Part shown: one piece after another, positions 15,368-36,826 of the stretch
Numbering within the stretch: position 1 is the stretch's first letter
Layout of the letters: each line of letters starts with the position of its first letter
From: Gemmatimonas aurantiaca T-27
GTDB lineage: Bacteria > Gemmatimonadota > Gemmatimonadetes > Gemmatimonadales > Gemmatimonadaceae
NCBI RefSeq assembly: GCF_000010305.1
Contig: NC_012489.1
Coordinates: 372,001 to 436,000 of the forward strand
Reading direction: 5' to 3'
DNA length: 64,000 bases
The notes under the pieces: generated by a model
The model's input: only the letters and a program-made list of their open reading frames with translations
Told to the model about the DNA's origin: nothing
Databases searched by the model: none
Program-made: the position numbers and the translations under genes

Positions 15368-16276
15368 ATGCGCGTTACCAATTCGATCATCACCGCGAAC
15401 AGCAAGCTTCGCCTGCAGACGGGTCTGCAGGGGATCGATCGCTTGCGCGATGACATCTCGACCGGCGTGACGATCCGGAAGATTTCGGACAACGCGACGA
15501 GCGGTGGTGAGATCGTGCGTATCGGCAGCTCGATGCGCGCCCTGACGCAGTTCAAGCGCAACACCGACTCTGGCATCGCGCGTGCGCAGGCGGAAGAAGG
15601 CGTGCTGAATCAGCTCACCAACACCGTCACGCGCGCGTCGGAAATTGCGCTCACGCAGATCGGCACCACGGCCACCGCGCAATCACGTCTGGTCGTGAAA
15701 GCCGAAGTGGATCAGTTGCTGAACCTCGCGTCGTCACTCGGCAACACCCGTTTCGGCGACGAGTATCTCTTTGGCGGCAATCGCGCCAACGAAGCACCGC
15801 TCTTCGATCCGGCACCGGCTACGGGTTCGTTCTCCCGTCTCATGTTGGCCGGCAATCCCGTCGATCCGAGCGGCAACATCACGCTCGAAGTGGGCGACAA
15901 CAAGTTTGTCACGCCCACACACAACGCGACGCAGGTATTCCTCGATACGGATGCCCTCGCAGCGCTGCGCGATCTGTCCACCGCACTGGGGGACAATGAC
16001 ACGGCGGCCATTCAGGCGGCGACGGCGCGCCTCAACACGGCGACCAGCAATGTCCAGACGTTGATCGGCGCGCAGGGTGCGCGCGTCAACGAGATGGAAG
16101 ATGCGAAGGTGAATCTCGCGACGATGGAGATGAACCTGAAAATGTTCCGATCCGATTTGCGTGACACCGAGATCGATCAGGCGATGGTCGAATTGGTAGG
16201 CAAACAAACACTGTATCAGGCCGCGATGAGCGCGACGTCGCGCATCCTGGGCCTGAGTCTCGCCAACTATCTGTAA
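15368..16276 (+). CDS. flgL: FlgL, hook-filament junction protein (HAP3)
   Basis: The protein is 302 residues. It has a flagellin-like N-terminal D0/D1 region (MRVTNSIITANSKLRLQTGL, then LRDDISTGVTIRKISDNATS), the FlgL segment LGNTRFGDEYLFGGNRANEA, and a C-terminal helix ending TSRILGLSLANYL. It is exported and forms the joint between hook and filament. FlgK is not in the window. fliW begins 6 bases after its stop, the common flgL-fliW pairing. Confidence 0.94.
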   Translation: MRVTNSIITANSKLRLQTGLQGIDRLRDDISTGVTIRKISDNATSGGEIVRIGSSMRALTQFKRNTDSGIARAQAEEGVLNQLTNTVTRASEIALTQIGTTATAQSRLVVKAEVDQLLNLASSLGNTRFGDEYLFGGNRANEAPLFDPAPATGSFSRLMLAGNPVDPSGNITLEVGDNKFVTPTHNATQVFLDTDALAALRDLSTALGDNDTAAIQAATARLNTATSNVQTLIGAQGARVNEMEDAKVNLATMEMNLKMFRSDLRDTEIDQAMVELVGKQTLYQAAMSATSRILGLSLANYL

Positions 16277-16282
16277 AATCCC

Positions 16283-16774
16283 ATGGGACTGGCAGTCATG
16301 AACGCATCGCAGGGCACGGTTACGATCACGCATCACTTCGGGACGATCGAAGTCTCGGAGGAAGCGATGATGACCTTTCCGACGGGTGGCCTCTTCGGCT
16401 TCGAGCGCGTCACGCAGTTCGCGCTTCTTCCCGCCGCGCGGCAGGGGCTCTGGTGGCTCATTGCACCAAACGCCGACGCCACGACCTTCGTGTTGGCCGA
16501 TCCCTTCGTGCTCGACGGCGATTACGCCATCGATCTCGGTGAGCGGGAAGGCGCAGACCTCGCGCTCGACGACGCGAACGACGCATTTGCCCTGGTGATG
16601 CTCACGTTGCCGGAAGGCGCCGCGCCCACGGCCAACATGCGCGCGCCGATCGTGTTCAACCTGGCCAAGCGTCTGGCGGCGCAGGTGGTGAGCCGCGATG
16701 AGTCGCACGAGCTGCAGAAGCCGGCAAATCTTGCGCTGTATCCACTGCAGGAAGGCGGCGTGTCGCTGGCCTGA
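16283..16774 (+). CDS. fliW: FliW, flagellar assembly factor and CsrA antagonist
   Basis: The protein is 163 residues. FliW features include FGTIEVSEEAMMTFPTGGLF, then GFERVTQFALLP, and the end segment APIVFNLAKRLAAQVV. In Bacillus and Campylobacter FliW binds either flagellin or the translational repressor CsrA, coupling flagellin synthesis to its export. No csrA follows here, although flgL-fliW-csrA is a frequent order; the next 320 bases hold only a terminator and a long inverted repeat. The flagellin leader at 32253-32288 carries a plausible CsrA target. An internal ATG at 16298 is an alternative start. Confidence 0.94.
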   Translation: MGLAVMNASQGTVTITHHFGTIEVSEEAMMTFPTGGLFGFERVTQFALLPAARQGLWWLIAPNADATTFVLADPFVLDGDYAIDLGEREGADLALDDANDAFALVMLTLPEGAAPTANMRAPIVFNLAKRLAAQVVSRDESHELQKPANLALYPLQEGGVSLA

Positions 16775-32056: not shown

Positions 32057-32189
32057 GCGCGGTGGTGGTGAAGGGCCATTGATGAAATGACGACGGCCCC
32101 CTGCGAAACGGCACATCCGGCGGCCCACGAACAGCATGTCAGCGGCGTGACATTTCGGGCCATTTGCGCCGTCAAGTTTTCAATGTCGC

Positions 32190-32240
32190 TCAAGTTCGTT
32201 TCCGCTGTGACGACACTGAGAACTGACCGCGATTCGATAG
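32190..32240 (+). promoter_or_regulatory. Candidate sigma-28-type promoter elements of flagellin
   Basis: Two weak readings exist. TCAAGTTC (32190-32197), 11 bases, then GACGACAC (32209-32216) has a fair -35. TTCGATAG (32233-32240) shares CGATAGTC with the flgM promoter but lacks a -35 at the right distance. No good sigma-54 site was found. The true promoter cannot be fixed by eye. Confidence 0.35.
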
Positions 32241-32252
32241 TCGAGTCCGGAC

Positions 32253-32288
32253 GAGGCACGGATGCCTCAGCTTCATTATCAAGGAGGA
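32253..32288 (+). promoter_or_regulatory. Flagellin leader hairpin and ribosome site, predicted CsrA target
   Basis: GAGGCA-CGGA-TGCCTC (32253-32268) forms a 6-bp hairpin with GGA in the loop. The local sequence CACGGATG is one base from the CsrA core CARGGAUG. Thirteen bases on lies AAGGAGGA (32281-32288), a strong Shine-Dalgarno that also holds GGA motifs, 7 bases before the ATG. In Bacillus, CsrA bridges two such sites on hag mRNA and FliW relieves it. fliW is in this window. Confidence 0.6.
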
Positions 32289-32295
32289 TAGTCTC

Positions 32296-33051
32296 ATGCG
32301 TATCAACACCAACGTCGGCGCCCTGACCGCTTCGCGTAACGCGTTCGTCAACAACATGGCCACCGAGTCCAGCATGCGTAAGCTGAGCTCGGGTCTGCGT
32401 ATCAGCCGTGCGGCTGACGACGCGGCAGGTCTTGCGATTGCGAACAAGCTCCGCGCGCAGCACCGTGGTCTCCAGGCTGCGTCGAACAACGCCGAGCAGG
32501 GCAATGCGCTCCTGCAGATCGCCGAAGGTGCAGCGTCGACCATCGAGCGTATCATCGAGCGTCAGAAGGAACTGCTGGTGCAGTCTGCTTCGGGTCAGAA
32601 CGCGTCGGTGTCGTCGACGCTGACCACAGAAGTGAGCACGCTGAACACGGAAATCGGTCGTATCGTCAGCGCGGCCAAGTTCCAGGGTACGGCAGTGTTT
32701 GCGTCGCACAGCTTCGCGGTTGACGAAGATGGCGCCACGTTCGCGGTCAACGCCGCGTACACGGCTCCGGGCTCGGCTCCCACGTCGTCGACGGGCGCGG
32801 ACACGAACCTGCAGTCGATCAACGACGTACTGGCCAACATCGGTGCTGGTCAGAACCGTCTCGACTACACGGTGCAGAACCTCAAGTCGGCCATCGTGAA
32901 CGTCAAGGCCGCCGAATCCACCATTCGCGACGTCGACATGGCGGAAGAAATGGCCAACTTCACGAAGAACAACATCCTCACGCAGGCGGCGCAGGCGATG
33001 CTCTCGCAGGCGAATCAGGGCTCGCAGTCAGTTCTGAACATCCTCCGCTAA
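32296..33051 (+). CDS. fliC: Flagellin, filament protein
   Basis: The protein is 251 residues, a short flagellin. The N-terminal D0/D1 region is canonical (MRINTNVGALTASRNAFVNN, KLSSGLRISRAADDAAGLAI, ANKLRAQHRGLQAASNNAEQ). The C-terminal D1/D0 region is NLKSAIVNVKAAESTIRDVD, MAEEMANFTKNNILTQAAQA and ending QGSQSVLNILR. The variable domain is reduced to a small region (about 130-175) with a Ser/Thr-rich patch, APTSSTGADTN, a possible glycosylation site. The leader suggests translational control by CsrA. It is flanked by a glycosyltransferase gene and fliD, and a hairpin follows the stop. Confidence 0.97.
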   Translation: MRINTNVGALTASRNAFVNNMATESSMRKLSSGLRISRAADDAAGLAIANKLRAQHRGLQAASNNAEQGNALLQIAEGAASTIERIIERQKELLVQSASGQNASVSSTLTTEVSTLNTEIGRIVSAAKFQGTAVFASHSFAVDEDGATFAVNAAYTAPGSAPTSSTGADTNLQSINDVLANIGAGQNRLDYTVQNLKSAIVNVKAAESTIRDVDMAEEMANFTKNNILTQAAQAMLSQANQGSQSVLNILR

Positions 33052-33110: not shown

Positions 33111-33141
33111 TATGGCCTTAGGCAGACGTATCGAGGCGCCC

Positions 33142-35196
33142 ATGACTACCCCGTTGAATTTTGGTGGCTTGAGTAGCGGCGTTCAGTGGAACGACATCGT
33201 CGACACGACGATCAAAGCCCTGGAAGCCCGTCAGGTCACACCCATCACCGACCGCATCACACTTCGCAACAAGCAGAAGGAAGCTTGGACGAAGTTGCAG
33301 GGGTTGGTGAACAACATGAACAGTGCCGCACTCGCGGTGCGTCGTGCCGGTTTCGGTGGCTTCCAGGCCACGGTTCCCACGAGCGCTTCGAGTGGGCGGA
33401 GCCTGCTCACTGCGTCCGCCACGTCAGCAGCGACCGCTGGTCGCTATCGCGTGGAAGTGTTGCAGACAGCAGATACCGCCAAGCTGGCCGGCGGTTCGGT
33501 CGCCGACACCACGGCGGCGCGCAATCTGTCGGGTTCATTCACCGTCAATGGCGCCACGATCTCTGTCGATGCGGCCGATTCACTGACCGCCATTCGCGAC
33601 AAGGTCAACGGTGCGAATGCCGGCGTCACGGCCACTATCGTATCGGAAGGCGGTACGGCGGGTCGCCTGGTGCTCACGAACAATGCATCGGGTGCCACCA
33701 AGCTCGATATCGGCGATGGGGCAGAAGGTCTCGGGCGTGAGTTGGGTTTCCTCGACTCACGCTCGAAGCCCATTTCCTCTTCCACGGTGGCGGCCGCTGC
33801 CGCCATGGGGCTGGCGGTGTATCCGCAGCCGGCGTCCATTCGTGTCGGCCACGTCACCATCACTGCGGATCTGGCAACGGAATCGATCTCCTCGATTGCC
33901 GCCAAGATCAATGCGGCAGGTGGTTCGGCGTCCGTGGAATCGGAACAGTACGGCGACGAAACGCGCTATCGCCTGGTGACGGACGGCAATGTGTCCGCCG
34001 TCGGTGGTGATCCGAACTCGCAGGCCGTGATCGATGCGCTGGGGATGGCCACGGGTACCTCTGGCGCGGTGCGTCAGACGGTGCAGAGTGCCGCGTTCAC
34101 CGATGGCAGCGATGCCCCGGTCTCGGCGTCCACCGCATTGACCTCACTCAAGGTCGATGGAGCTTCGGCCAATCTCGTCGTCGGCGATGCCATCAATATC
34201 CGCGGCACCCGTGGTGATGGCACCGCGGTGTCGTACGGTATCGTCATCGAGCCGGGCGACACCATGCAGTCGTTGCTCGACCGGATCAACGATGCCAGCT
34301 CGGGTTTTGGCTCCGGCAGCCGCACGGCGTCGGCCGAACTTGGGCCCGACGGGCGTATTCGCCTCACCGACGATACTGGCGGCGCCTCGCGCATGTCGTT
34401 CTCGATGAGCGTGACGCACGCCAACGGCACCACCGGTTCACTTGGCGCCACCAGCACCGCCGTCGCCGGACGCAGCCGCGAGCTGCAACAGGGTCGCGAT
34501 GCCATCGTGCGCGTCGACGGACAGGAGTTCACGCGTTCGAGCAACACCTTCTCGGATGTGGTGAACGGCGTCGCCATCACGTTGCAGACAGCCGAACCCG
34601 GCACGACGATCGATCTGGCGGTGGAGCGCGATGAAAAAGGCGCGGTCGACGCGACCAAGAAGCTCGTGGATGCCTACAACGAGATCCGCAGCTTCTACGA
34701 TGAGCAGCGTGCCACGGATGCGCCGCTCTACGGCGACGGCAACCTGCGTCGCGTGGTGAACACCTTCACCGAGGCCCTGCGGGCCGACGTATCGGGTACC
34801 AATGCGACCTACGGCCGCAGTGTGAACGTGGGACTGATGCTCGATCGGGCCGGCAAGCTCACGTTCAACGAAGCGGATTTCAAGAAGGCGTTTGCCGACA
34901 AGCCAGCGGAAATCGAGACCCTGTTCGGCATGTCGGGTATTGGCGGGGCCTTTGTGGTGGCCACCGACAATGCCACACGTTTCGGCGAAGGGCCGATCAG
35001 CACGTCGCTCAACAGCATTCTCGAGAACGTCAACACGCTGCAGAATCGCGAAGCCGAGCAGAAGAAGCGGCTGGAAGATCGACGCATGCAGTTGATCCAG
35101 CAGTACACGCGCATGGAAGAAGCCCTGTCCCGGCTGCAGCAGCAGAGTGGATCTTTGCTGGCTTCAGTGCAGGGACTTCAGGGAAGCAGTAACTGA
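33142..35196 (+). CDS. fliD: FliD, filament cap protein (HAP2)
   Basis: The protein is 684 residues from MTTPLNFGGLSSGVQWNDIV, a good FliD N-terminus. The FliD N domain (about 1-110) is followed by repeated flagellin-hook-like beta domains (ATPASIRVGHVTITADLATE-type segments, LVVGDAINIRGTRGDG). The C domain runs from GRSRELQQGRDAIVRVDGQE to a coiled coil (NTLQNREAEQKKRLEDRRMQ) and the end LSRLQQQSGSLLASVQGLQG. It caps the growing filament. An upstream ATG at 33112 would overlap the flagellin hairpin and is rejected. Confidence 0.95.
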   Translation: MTTPLNFGGLSSGVQWNDIVDTTIKALEARQVTPITDRITLRNKQKEAWTKLQGLVNNMNSAALAVRRAGFGGFQATVPTSASSGRSLLTASATSAATAGRYRVEVLQTADTAKLAGGSVADTTAARNLSGSFTVNGATISVDAADSLTAIRDKVNGANAGVTATIVSEGGTAGRLVLTNNASGATKLDIGDGAEGLGRELGFLDSRSKPISSSTVAAAAAMGLAVYPQPASIRVGHVTITADLATESISSIAAKINAAGGSASVESEQYGDETRYRLVTDGNVSAVGGDPNSQAVIDALGMATGTSGAVRQTVQSAAFTDGSDAPVSASTALTSLKVDGASANLVVGDAINIRGTRGDGTAVSYGIVIEPGDTMQSLLDRINDASSGFGSGSRTASAELGPDGRIRLTDDTGGASRMSFSMSVTHANGTTGSLGATSTAVAGRSRELQQGRDAIVRVDGQEFTRSSNTFSDVVNGVAITLQTAEPGTTIDLAVERDEKGAVDATKKLVDAYNEIRSFYDEQRATDAPLYGDGNLRRVVNTFTEALRADVSGTNATYGRSVNVGLMLDRAGKLTFNEADFKKAFADKPAEIETLFGMSGIGGAFVVATDNATRFGEGPISTSLNSILENVNTLQNREAEQKKRLEDRRMQLIQQYTRMEEALSRLQQQSGSLLASVQGLQGSSN

Positions 35197-35263: not shown

Positions 35264-35662
35264 ATGTCATACACCACACTGCAGTCCAACTATCGCGAGA
35301 TGGAAATCCATGCCGCCTCGCCGGAAAAGTTGCTCTGCATCGTCTTCGAGCAGTTGGTCGTCAATCTGGAACGCGCCCGCATCGCGATCGAACGCAAGGA
35401 CGTCGAGCTCCGGGTCGTGGCGCTGCGCCGGGCCCGCGGCCTGGTGACCGAGTTGCTCACGACCCTCGATGTCGAAAAGGGCGGGCCGCTCGGTGTGGAG
35501 CTGGCCGGTATGTATCAGGTCATGTTGGTCGAGTTGGTGGATGTCGGGATGCGCGGTGATCTCAAGGTCATGCGCCAGCTCGTCAACATCGCCACACAAC
35601 TGCGTGACGGATTTGTGGGCGCGGAGCGTCAACTGGCGGCGCAGCGTCTGAAGACCGCATGA
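35264..35662 (+). CDS. fliS: FliS, flagellin export chaperone
   Basis: The protein is 132 residues. FliS features are SYTTLQSNYREMEIHAASPE, KLLCIVFEQLVVNLERARIA and the helical remainder with VTELLTTLDVEKGGPLGVEL. FliS binds the C-terminal helix of flagellin and prevents early polymerisation. It follows fliD, the standard order, and its stop overlaps the next start (ATGA). Confidence 0.93.
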   Translation: MSYTTLQSNYREMEIHAASPEKLLCIVFEQLVVNLERARIAIERKDVELRVVALRRARGLVTELLTTLDVEKGGPLGVELAGMYQVMLVELVDVGMRGDLKVMRQLVNIATQLRDGFVGAERQLAAQRLKTA

Positions 35663-36149: not shown

Positions 36150-36467
36150 ATGTCGGCTGCCCCGGAGCGTTTTGGACAGCTTCTCCAGGAGAAGCTGGAC
36201 GAACTGGATGCGGCGGCCGAACAGGAAATGCTGCTGGCCTTCGATGAGGTCGAGCAGTTGCGATTGCAGGCTGCGGCGCTGGTGACGCGGGGCGAACATC
36301 GCCCCTGGGCCACCGGCGCCAATACGAAGTACCAGCACGACCAGGTGGTGCCGGAAGCGCCACCGCCAACACTCGATATCCGTTTTCCGACCCGCCCGGC
36401 CGACAAGGACCAGGCAGGACCGGGGGATGGAGCTTCTTCGAAGCGACAGGGACGTCGCGTTCCGTAA
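36150..36467 (+). CDS. Unknown small protein after the fliS cluster
   Basis: The protein is 105 residues, family unknown. It has an N-terminal helix (RFGQLLQEKLDELDAAAEQE, then MLLAFDEVEQLRLQAAALV) and a Pro/Lys/Arg-rich, probably disordered tail. It begins 2 bases after the preceding stop, so it is co-translated with the chaperone-like gene. The short helix plus loose tail would suit an accessory export or chaperone protein. No function is claimed. Confidence 0.55.
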   Translation: MSAAPERFGQLLQEKLDELDAAAEQEMLLAFDEVEQLRLQAAALVTRGEHRPWATGANTKYQHDQVVPEAPPPTLDIRFPTRPADKDQAGPGDGASSKRQGRRVP

Positions 36468-36541: not shown

Positions 36542-36826
36542 ATGAAGATCAACAGCTACATCGACACCCTTCGTACGACGCCGGCCAATCCCACGGCCGT
36601 TCCGCGTCCGGCGCAGGAAGTCACGCAGTCTCCGGCCACTCGGCCGGTCAAGTCGGATTCGGTCCAGATCTCGGACGCCGGTCGCCGCCTGAACGCAGAA
36701 CAGCGTGAAGCGATCGACCCGGAACGGGTGGCTGAACTTCGGCAAAAAGTTCTGTCCGGCGCCTACAACACCCTCGATGTGGTGGATCAGGTCGCCCGAC
36801 GCATTCTCACGCGTGGCGAGCTGTAG
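36542..36826 (+). CDS. flgM: FlgM, anti-sigma-28 factor
   Basis: The protein is 94 residues, a typical size. The N-terminal half is loose (MKINSYIDTL and a Pro/Thr region). The sigma-binding half reads SDSVQISDAGRRLN, then ERVAELRQKVLSGAYNTLDV and VARRILTRGEL, the FlgM signature. It holds the flagellar sigma factor inactive until it is exported after hook completion. It sits behind its own sigma-28-type promoter, giving feedback. FliA itself is outside the window. Confidence 0.92.
   Translation: MKINSYIDTLRTTPANPTAVPRPAQEVTQSPATRPVKSDSVQISDAGRRLNAEQREAIDPERVAELRQKVLSGAYNTLDVVDQVARRILTRGEL

Follow-up and report, generated by a model that had tools for sequence, protein, structure and literature searches.

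The leader of the flagellin gene of Gemmatimonas aurantiaca T-27 is very probably the flagellin-mRNA arm of a FliC-FliW-CsrA homeostat, which would place that circuit in the Gemmatimonadota with csrA and fliW split apart. This FliW-CsrA feedback on flagellin is considered so probable because the leader carries a conserved CsrA-type hairpin and the genome encodes both CsrA and FliW. The window, meaning the whole 64 kb stretch of DNA that was analysed, corresponds to C1:372001-436000 of the single-contig genome (4,636,964 bases), has its closest relatives in Gemmatimonas and the Gemmatimonadaceae, and all of its features described here lie on the forward strand. The flagellin gene (fliC/hag, 32296-33051, 251 aa; Pfam Flagellin_N 1e-27, Flagellin_C 5.9e-25) is followed by fliD for the filament cap (33112-35196; FliD_C 1.3e-33, FliD_N 9.1e-14), fliS for the flagellin chaperone (35264-35662; FliS 1.9e-23), and flgM for the anti-sigma-28 factor (36542-36826; PF04316 1.1e-7), which has its own sigma-28-like promoter upstream. 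Further to the left are flgL for a hook-filament junction protein (15368-16276; TIGR02550 3e-43, above the cut-off) and, 6 nt behind it, fliW (16283-16774, 163 aa; PF02623, E=8e-26), correctly recognized in an initial annotation made from the sequence. The FliW protein matches the solved FliW structures 2aj7 and 5dmb and is the only FliW of the genome.

The hairpin ahead of the flagellin gene

The predicted high-affinity CsrA-type site, BS1 (32253-32268), consists of the arms GAGGC and GCCUC in a 5-bp stem around the hexaloop ACGGAU (32258-32263), a loop of the form ANGGAN; the hairpin ends 27 nt 5′ of the flagellin ATG at 32296, and its pairs have probabilities of 0.95-1.0. The initial annotation had reported a hairpin at this place with GGA in its loop, and both its sequence and the position of the GGA were confirmed; it had however read the arms as GAGGCA (32253-32258) and TGCCTC (32263-32268) around a CGGA tetraloop (32259-32262) closed by an A-U pair, while CsrA is known to bind the hexaloop form, here on a 5-bp stem. 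With both strands of the 64 kb window counted, only six ANGGAN hairpins have a stem of 5 bp or more, and two of the six are in the flagellin leader; an ANGGAN hairpin arose in 23 of 5000 dinucleotide shuffles of that leader. When the genome was searched for further leader-like hairpins by RNA model and by exact pattern, the model gave a single strong match, the flagellin leader itself (E=1.5e-15), with the next at 0.3. A hairpin at C1:2506497 (arms GGGGA and TCCCC around ACGGAU, E=0.33) was treated as a chance occurrence, with no convincing gene downstream; two adjacent ANGGAN hairpins at 36422-36458 resembled a second pair of CsrA sites, but they lie in or at the end of a small ORF (36150-36467) upstream of the flgM promoter and the fold predicted there is a different one, so that they too are probably due to chance. 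An Rfam search with the flagellin leader and eight related loci returned no family.

Relatives of the flagellin, gathered in 150 Gemmatimonadota genomes as well as in a public genome collection, provided 54 distinct leaders. The BS1 hairpin is present in 51 of the 54, against 0.24 expected from shuffles, although these counts come from related genomes and are not independent; across the relatives, the loop GGA lies 30-41 nt from the start codon. In an alignment of 49 leaders, from which the three without the hairpin and two close duplicates were excluded, every stem cell is paired (245/245), compensatory changes occur at all five stem positions, and the loop reads A-N-GGA-N in all 49; A-GGA thus stays constant even as the arms vary. 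The structure of two helices has 78.6% of its cells paired, compared with 38.8-52.9% after the partners are slid by one to three columns. This pattern, with the two arms changing together while the unpaired loop stays the same, suggests that a protein recognizes the loop in the RNA.

Some individual leaders deserve mention in their own right. The three hairpin-less leaders (L173, L176, and L179) all belong to one paralogous flagellin type (MPGLSINTN...) from a deep lineage with several flagellins, and their sister flagellins have the hairpin. The RNA model also located a flagellin leader at a contig end in genome G006, where the gene is cut; that leader was in neither the training set nor the protein search. 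A contig labelled Candidatus Kuenenia stuttgartiensis (CALQGY020000133.1) encodes two flagellins behind leaders of the Gemmatimonas type, with 67% identity to the query, and is likely misbinned.

The pattern of variation also bears on two readings that do without CsrA, and both were rejected from it. The repeat is nearly a perfect palindrome and follows a promoter-like element, and so could be a DNA operator bound by a transcription factor at the flagellin promoter; an operator, however, would be expected to keep its arms and vary its spacer, whereas here the arms change in compensated pairs, the A-GGA spacer does not change, and the position is fixed relative to the start codon (30-41 nt), which leaves this explanation scarcely credible. 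Alternatively, the hairpin could be purely structural, as an mRNA stabilizer, attenuator, or thermometer that CsrA does not bind. Stable leader hairpins can stabilize mRNA, and the adjoining 5′ hairpin described below looks like such an element, but an unpaired A-GGA held invariant at a fixed distance from a GGA-bearing Shine-Dalgarno would not be expected of it, and the hairpin is not followed by a T-run. Nor would a structural element be expected to track csrA across phyla. In flagellin leaders of Bacillota, Actinomycetota, Spirochaetota, and other phyla, an ANGGAN hairpin with at least 4 pairs is found in the same place in 36 of 59 cases (0.32 expected). Among the 50 of these genomes checked for csrA, the hairpin is present in 29 of 36 with the gene and in one of 14 without it, the exception being a small metagenome bin; the Fisher p-value of 2.5e-6 is weakened by shared ancestry, since most csrA-less genomes are Lactobacillales-type. 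A purely structural role is consequently regarded as very unlikely. One feature does speak against a CsrA site: the stem of 5-6 bp is longer than in most SELEX winners, which have stems of four or fewer bp (PMC7652899).

The leader from promoter to start codon

A putative sigma-28 promoter can be read at 32189-32216, with a -35-like element, CTCAAGTT (32189-32196), a 12-nt spacer, and a -10-like element, GACGACAC (32209-32216). In most related leaders a -10-like (G/T)(C/A)CGAnA recurs about 44 nt ahead of the hairpin, so the flagellin mRNA probably starts near 32222. Folded from that position (32222-32300), the leader contains three consecutive hairpins: a 5′ hairpin, BS1, and a weak hairpin at the Shine-Dalgarno. 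The 5′-terminal hairpin (32227-32250) appears in both the MFE and the centroid fold with pair probabilities of 0.91-1.0, and its loop has no GGA. It is kept as a fold but not as a sequence: the mean folding z is -1.71 across 51 leaders, whereas control stretches further upstream average -0.11. It may act as a stabilizer of the 5′ end or as a spacer.

The flagellin Shine-Dalgarno was read as AAGGAGGA (32281-32288), within the region CAAGGAGGAT, which has GGA at 32283 and 32286 ahead of the ATG. A second GGA in the Shine-Dalgarno, described in the initial annotation as 13 bases on, is therefore present, but 14 nt separate it from the hairpin; the first Shine-Dalgarno GGA is 20 nt away from the loop GGA (23 start to start), within the 10-63 nt taken as the range for bridging by a CsrA dimer. 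This second, candidate CsrA-type site, BS2 (32275-32292), could form a weak 6-bp hairpin with the hexaloop AAGGAG (32281-32286) over the Shine-Dalgarno. The pair probability of the BS2 hairpin is 0.03-0.36 depending on the ends chosen, and 57% of its cells are paired phylum-wide; the GGA is conserved, while the hairpin is conserved only partly, though certain relatives have a convincing one (TCATC/GATGA and CCATC/GATGG around AAGGAG). Folding from 32200 gives a different pairing around the Shine-Dalgarno, so a hairpin there is not firmly claimed, and given its weakness BS2 may be single-stranded.

From these features we infer CsrA binding, translational repression, antagonism by FliW, and the transcription start itself. 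In the proposed scheme, sigma-28 would direct synthesis of a flagellin mRNA whose leader measures about 75 nt. On this leader, a CsrA dimer would dock on the loop GGA of BS1, and the docked dimer would bridge to the Shine-Dalgarno GGA and block ribosomes. Cytoplasmic flagellin would occupy FliW until flagellin export frees it, and the freed FliW would then bind the C-terminal helix of CsrA (V51/N55) and lift repression. CsrA might instead bind the leader with its main effect on mRNA stability or localization rather than on translation. CsrA also lowers the hag transcript in B. subtilis (PMC6529632), and CsrA-FliW affects flaA mRNA localization in C. jejuni (PMC4894983), but a second GGA in the Shine-Dalgarno at bridging distance is the classical design for blocking ribosomes (PMC7652899), and this alternative is judged unlikely.

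A leader of the same kind also stands ahead of a second gene in two species of one deep-branching genus (G003:C7:4586-4869, L245/L255; G007:C109:21724-22015, L246/L256). It has the three hairpins, a sigma-28-like -10 box, and both ANGGAN sites, and the gene behind it encodes a protein of 76-79 aa that is 63% identical between the two species and has no Pfam match. The gene is a candidate for a second, non-flagellin CsrA target.

csrA and fliW in the genome and across the phylum

The usual neighbor of fliW, csrA, is absent within the 64 kb window, as the initial annotation had observed; it had proposed a search of the rest of the genome, with absence there counting against a CsrA site. Exactly one copy was found. 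It lies on the reverse strand at C1:349738-350040, 22 kb to the left of the window, where it follows flgK after a few bases and has motA nearby. The distance from csrA to fliW is 38 kb, and it is about 29-43 kb in other sampled Gemmatimonadia genomes with both genes on one contig. With few exceptions among the Gemmatimonadia loci examined, csrA immediately follows flgK and fliW immediately follows flgL, while a deep Gemmatimonadota lineage (L194) has flgK-csrA-flgL-fliW in one stretch; because this lineage retains the four genes together, an ancestral cluster was probably not lost but broken apart between csrA and flgL. In B. subtilis, fliW overlaps csrA, and the resulting coupled translation sets a 1:1 ratio (PMC6529632). 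Unlike that adjacent, translationally coupled operon, the Gemmatimonas genes form separate flgK-csrA and flgL-fliW pairs, each behind a hook-filament junction gene, and at this distance fliW-csrA coupling cannot set the CsrA:FliW ratio. In this genome neither csrA nor fliW has an evident Shine-Dalgarno of its own, and the gaps to flgK and flgL are of only a few nt, which suggests that their translation is coupled to flgK and flgL, respectively.

By alignment, the CsrA protein (100 aa) has the RNA-binding residues L4, R6, and R44, together with a C-terminal extension and the FliW-contact residues V51 and N55 (sought as V/I51 and N55). In C. jejuni, FliW binding depends on both V51 and N55 (PMC7829508), and E. 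coli CsrA has K55 where the Gemmatimonas protein has N55. Beyond the usual FliW-type extension, CsrA in this genus has a long, variable tail rich in Ala, Pro, Ser, and Thr (L191:5739-6041 in the locus set). Four genomes that encode FliW (L129, L136, L137, and L138; three of the four from one genus) have a CsrA without N at residue 55, which is needed for FliW binding in B. subtilis as well as in C. jejuni, and these proteins are natural variants of the FliW contact.

Flagellin is encoded in 40 of the 150 Gemmatimonadota genomes, and of these 39 have CsrA and 39 have FliW. Among the 110 genomes without flagellin, CsrA was found in four and FliW in one, some of the exceptions to co-occurrence being fragmented assemblies, G006 among them. 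Within this phylum, then, CsrA hardly occurs outside flagellated genomes. Two genomes (L199 in G074 and L197 in G147) have a short CsrA of 59-69 aa without N55, with no match to FliW or flagellin in either genome; these proteins are possibly freed from flagellar duty or decaying.

A broader proposal is tentative, and rather doubtful as it stands: the homeostat of the Gemmatimonadia may have been rewired, with CsrA synthesis coupled to FlgK and FliW synthesis to FlgL, so that the ratio of repressor to antagonist would be set at two sites and not via fliW-csrA, while the three-hairpin leader would be a portable module, found also on the non-flagellin gene of the related genus.

Comparison with characterized systems

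The initial annotation had compared the leader with Bacillus hag. The CsrA reading is supported by the two-site layout, by the phylum-wide covariation of the hairpin, and by the presence of csrA and fliW with the right residues, but Bacillus is not the sole model, as C. jejuni flaA, the closest proven relative, matches the Gemmatimonas leader even more closely. In the flaA leader, two hairpins present ANGGA loops 21 nt apart, the second hairpin covers the ribosome-binding site, and compensatory changes occur among species; CsrA repression was demonstrated there by mutation and footprinting, with FliW as the antagonist (PMC4894983). Like flaA with its SL1 and SL2, the Gemmatimonas leader has two adjacent GGA sites, the first in a hexaloop and the second, possibly in a hexaloop too, over the ribosome-binding site, at the similar GGA spacing given above. 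Unlike flaA, it has a further hairpin 5′ of the pair, its SL2-like hairpin is weak, its predicted leader is longer (45 nt in flaA), and its csrA is linked to flgK, all in a different phylum. B. subtilis hag likewise has two CsrA sites, one over the Shine-Dalgarno, and B. subtilis shares with Gemmatimonas a FliW, a long-tailed CsrA with N55, and, in the proposed scheme, the logic of flagellin feedback (PMC7652899, PMC6529632). The E. coli glgC leader has a GGA in a hairpin loop just upstream of a Shine-Dalgarno GGA, the two bridged there by one CsrA dimer; however, glgC is a different target gene with four sites, and E. coli controls CsrA by the CsrB and CsrC RNAs, with no FliW (PMC7652899).

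Literature searches on Gemmatimonas and CsrA returned nothing relevant, and no paper on FliW-CsrA control of flagellin in Gemmatimonadota was found; an article on flagella in G. phototrophica (PMC9862903) makes no mention of FliW or of a carbon storage regulator. This kind of system is already known from C. jejuni and B. subtilis, and what differs here is the phylum, the split gene arrangement, and the added 5′ hairpin. Backed by strong covariation evidence, the leader would bring flagellin control by FliW and CsrA to a little-studied phylum, where the near restriction of CsrA to flagellated genomes supports the view that controlling flagellin is among the old tasks of CsrA. The separated genes also offer a natural experiment on how the FliW:CsrA ratio is maintained once csrA and fliW are uncoupled.
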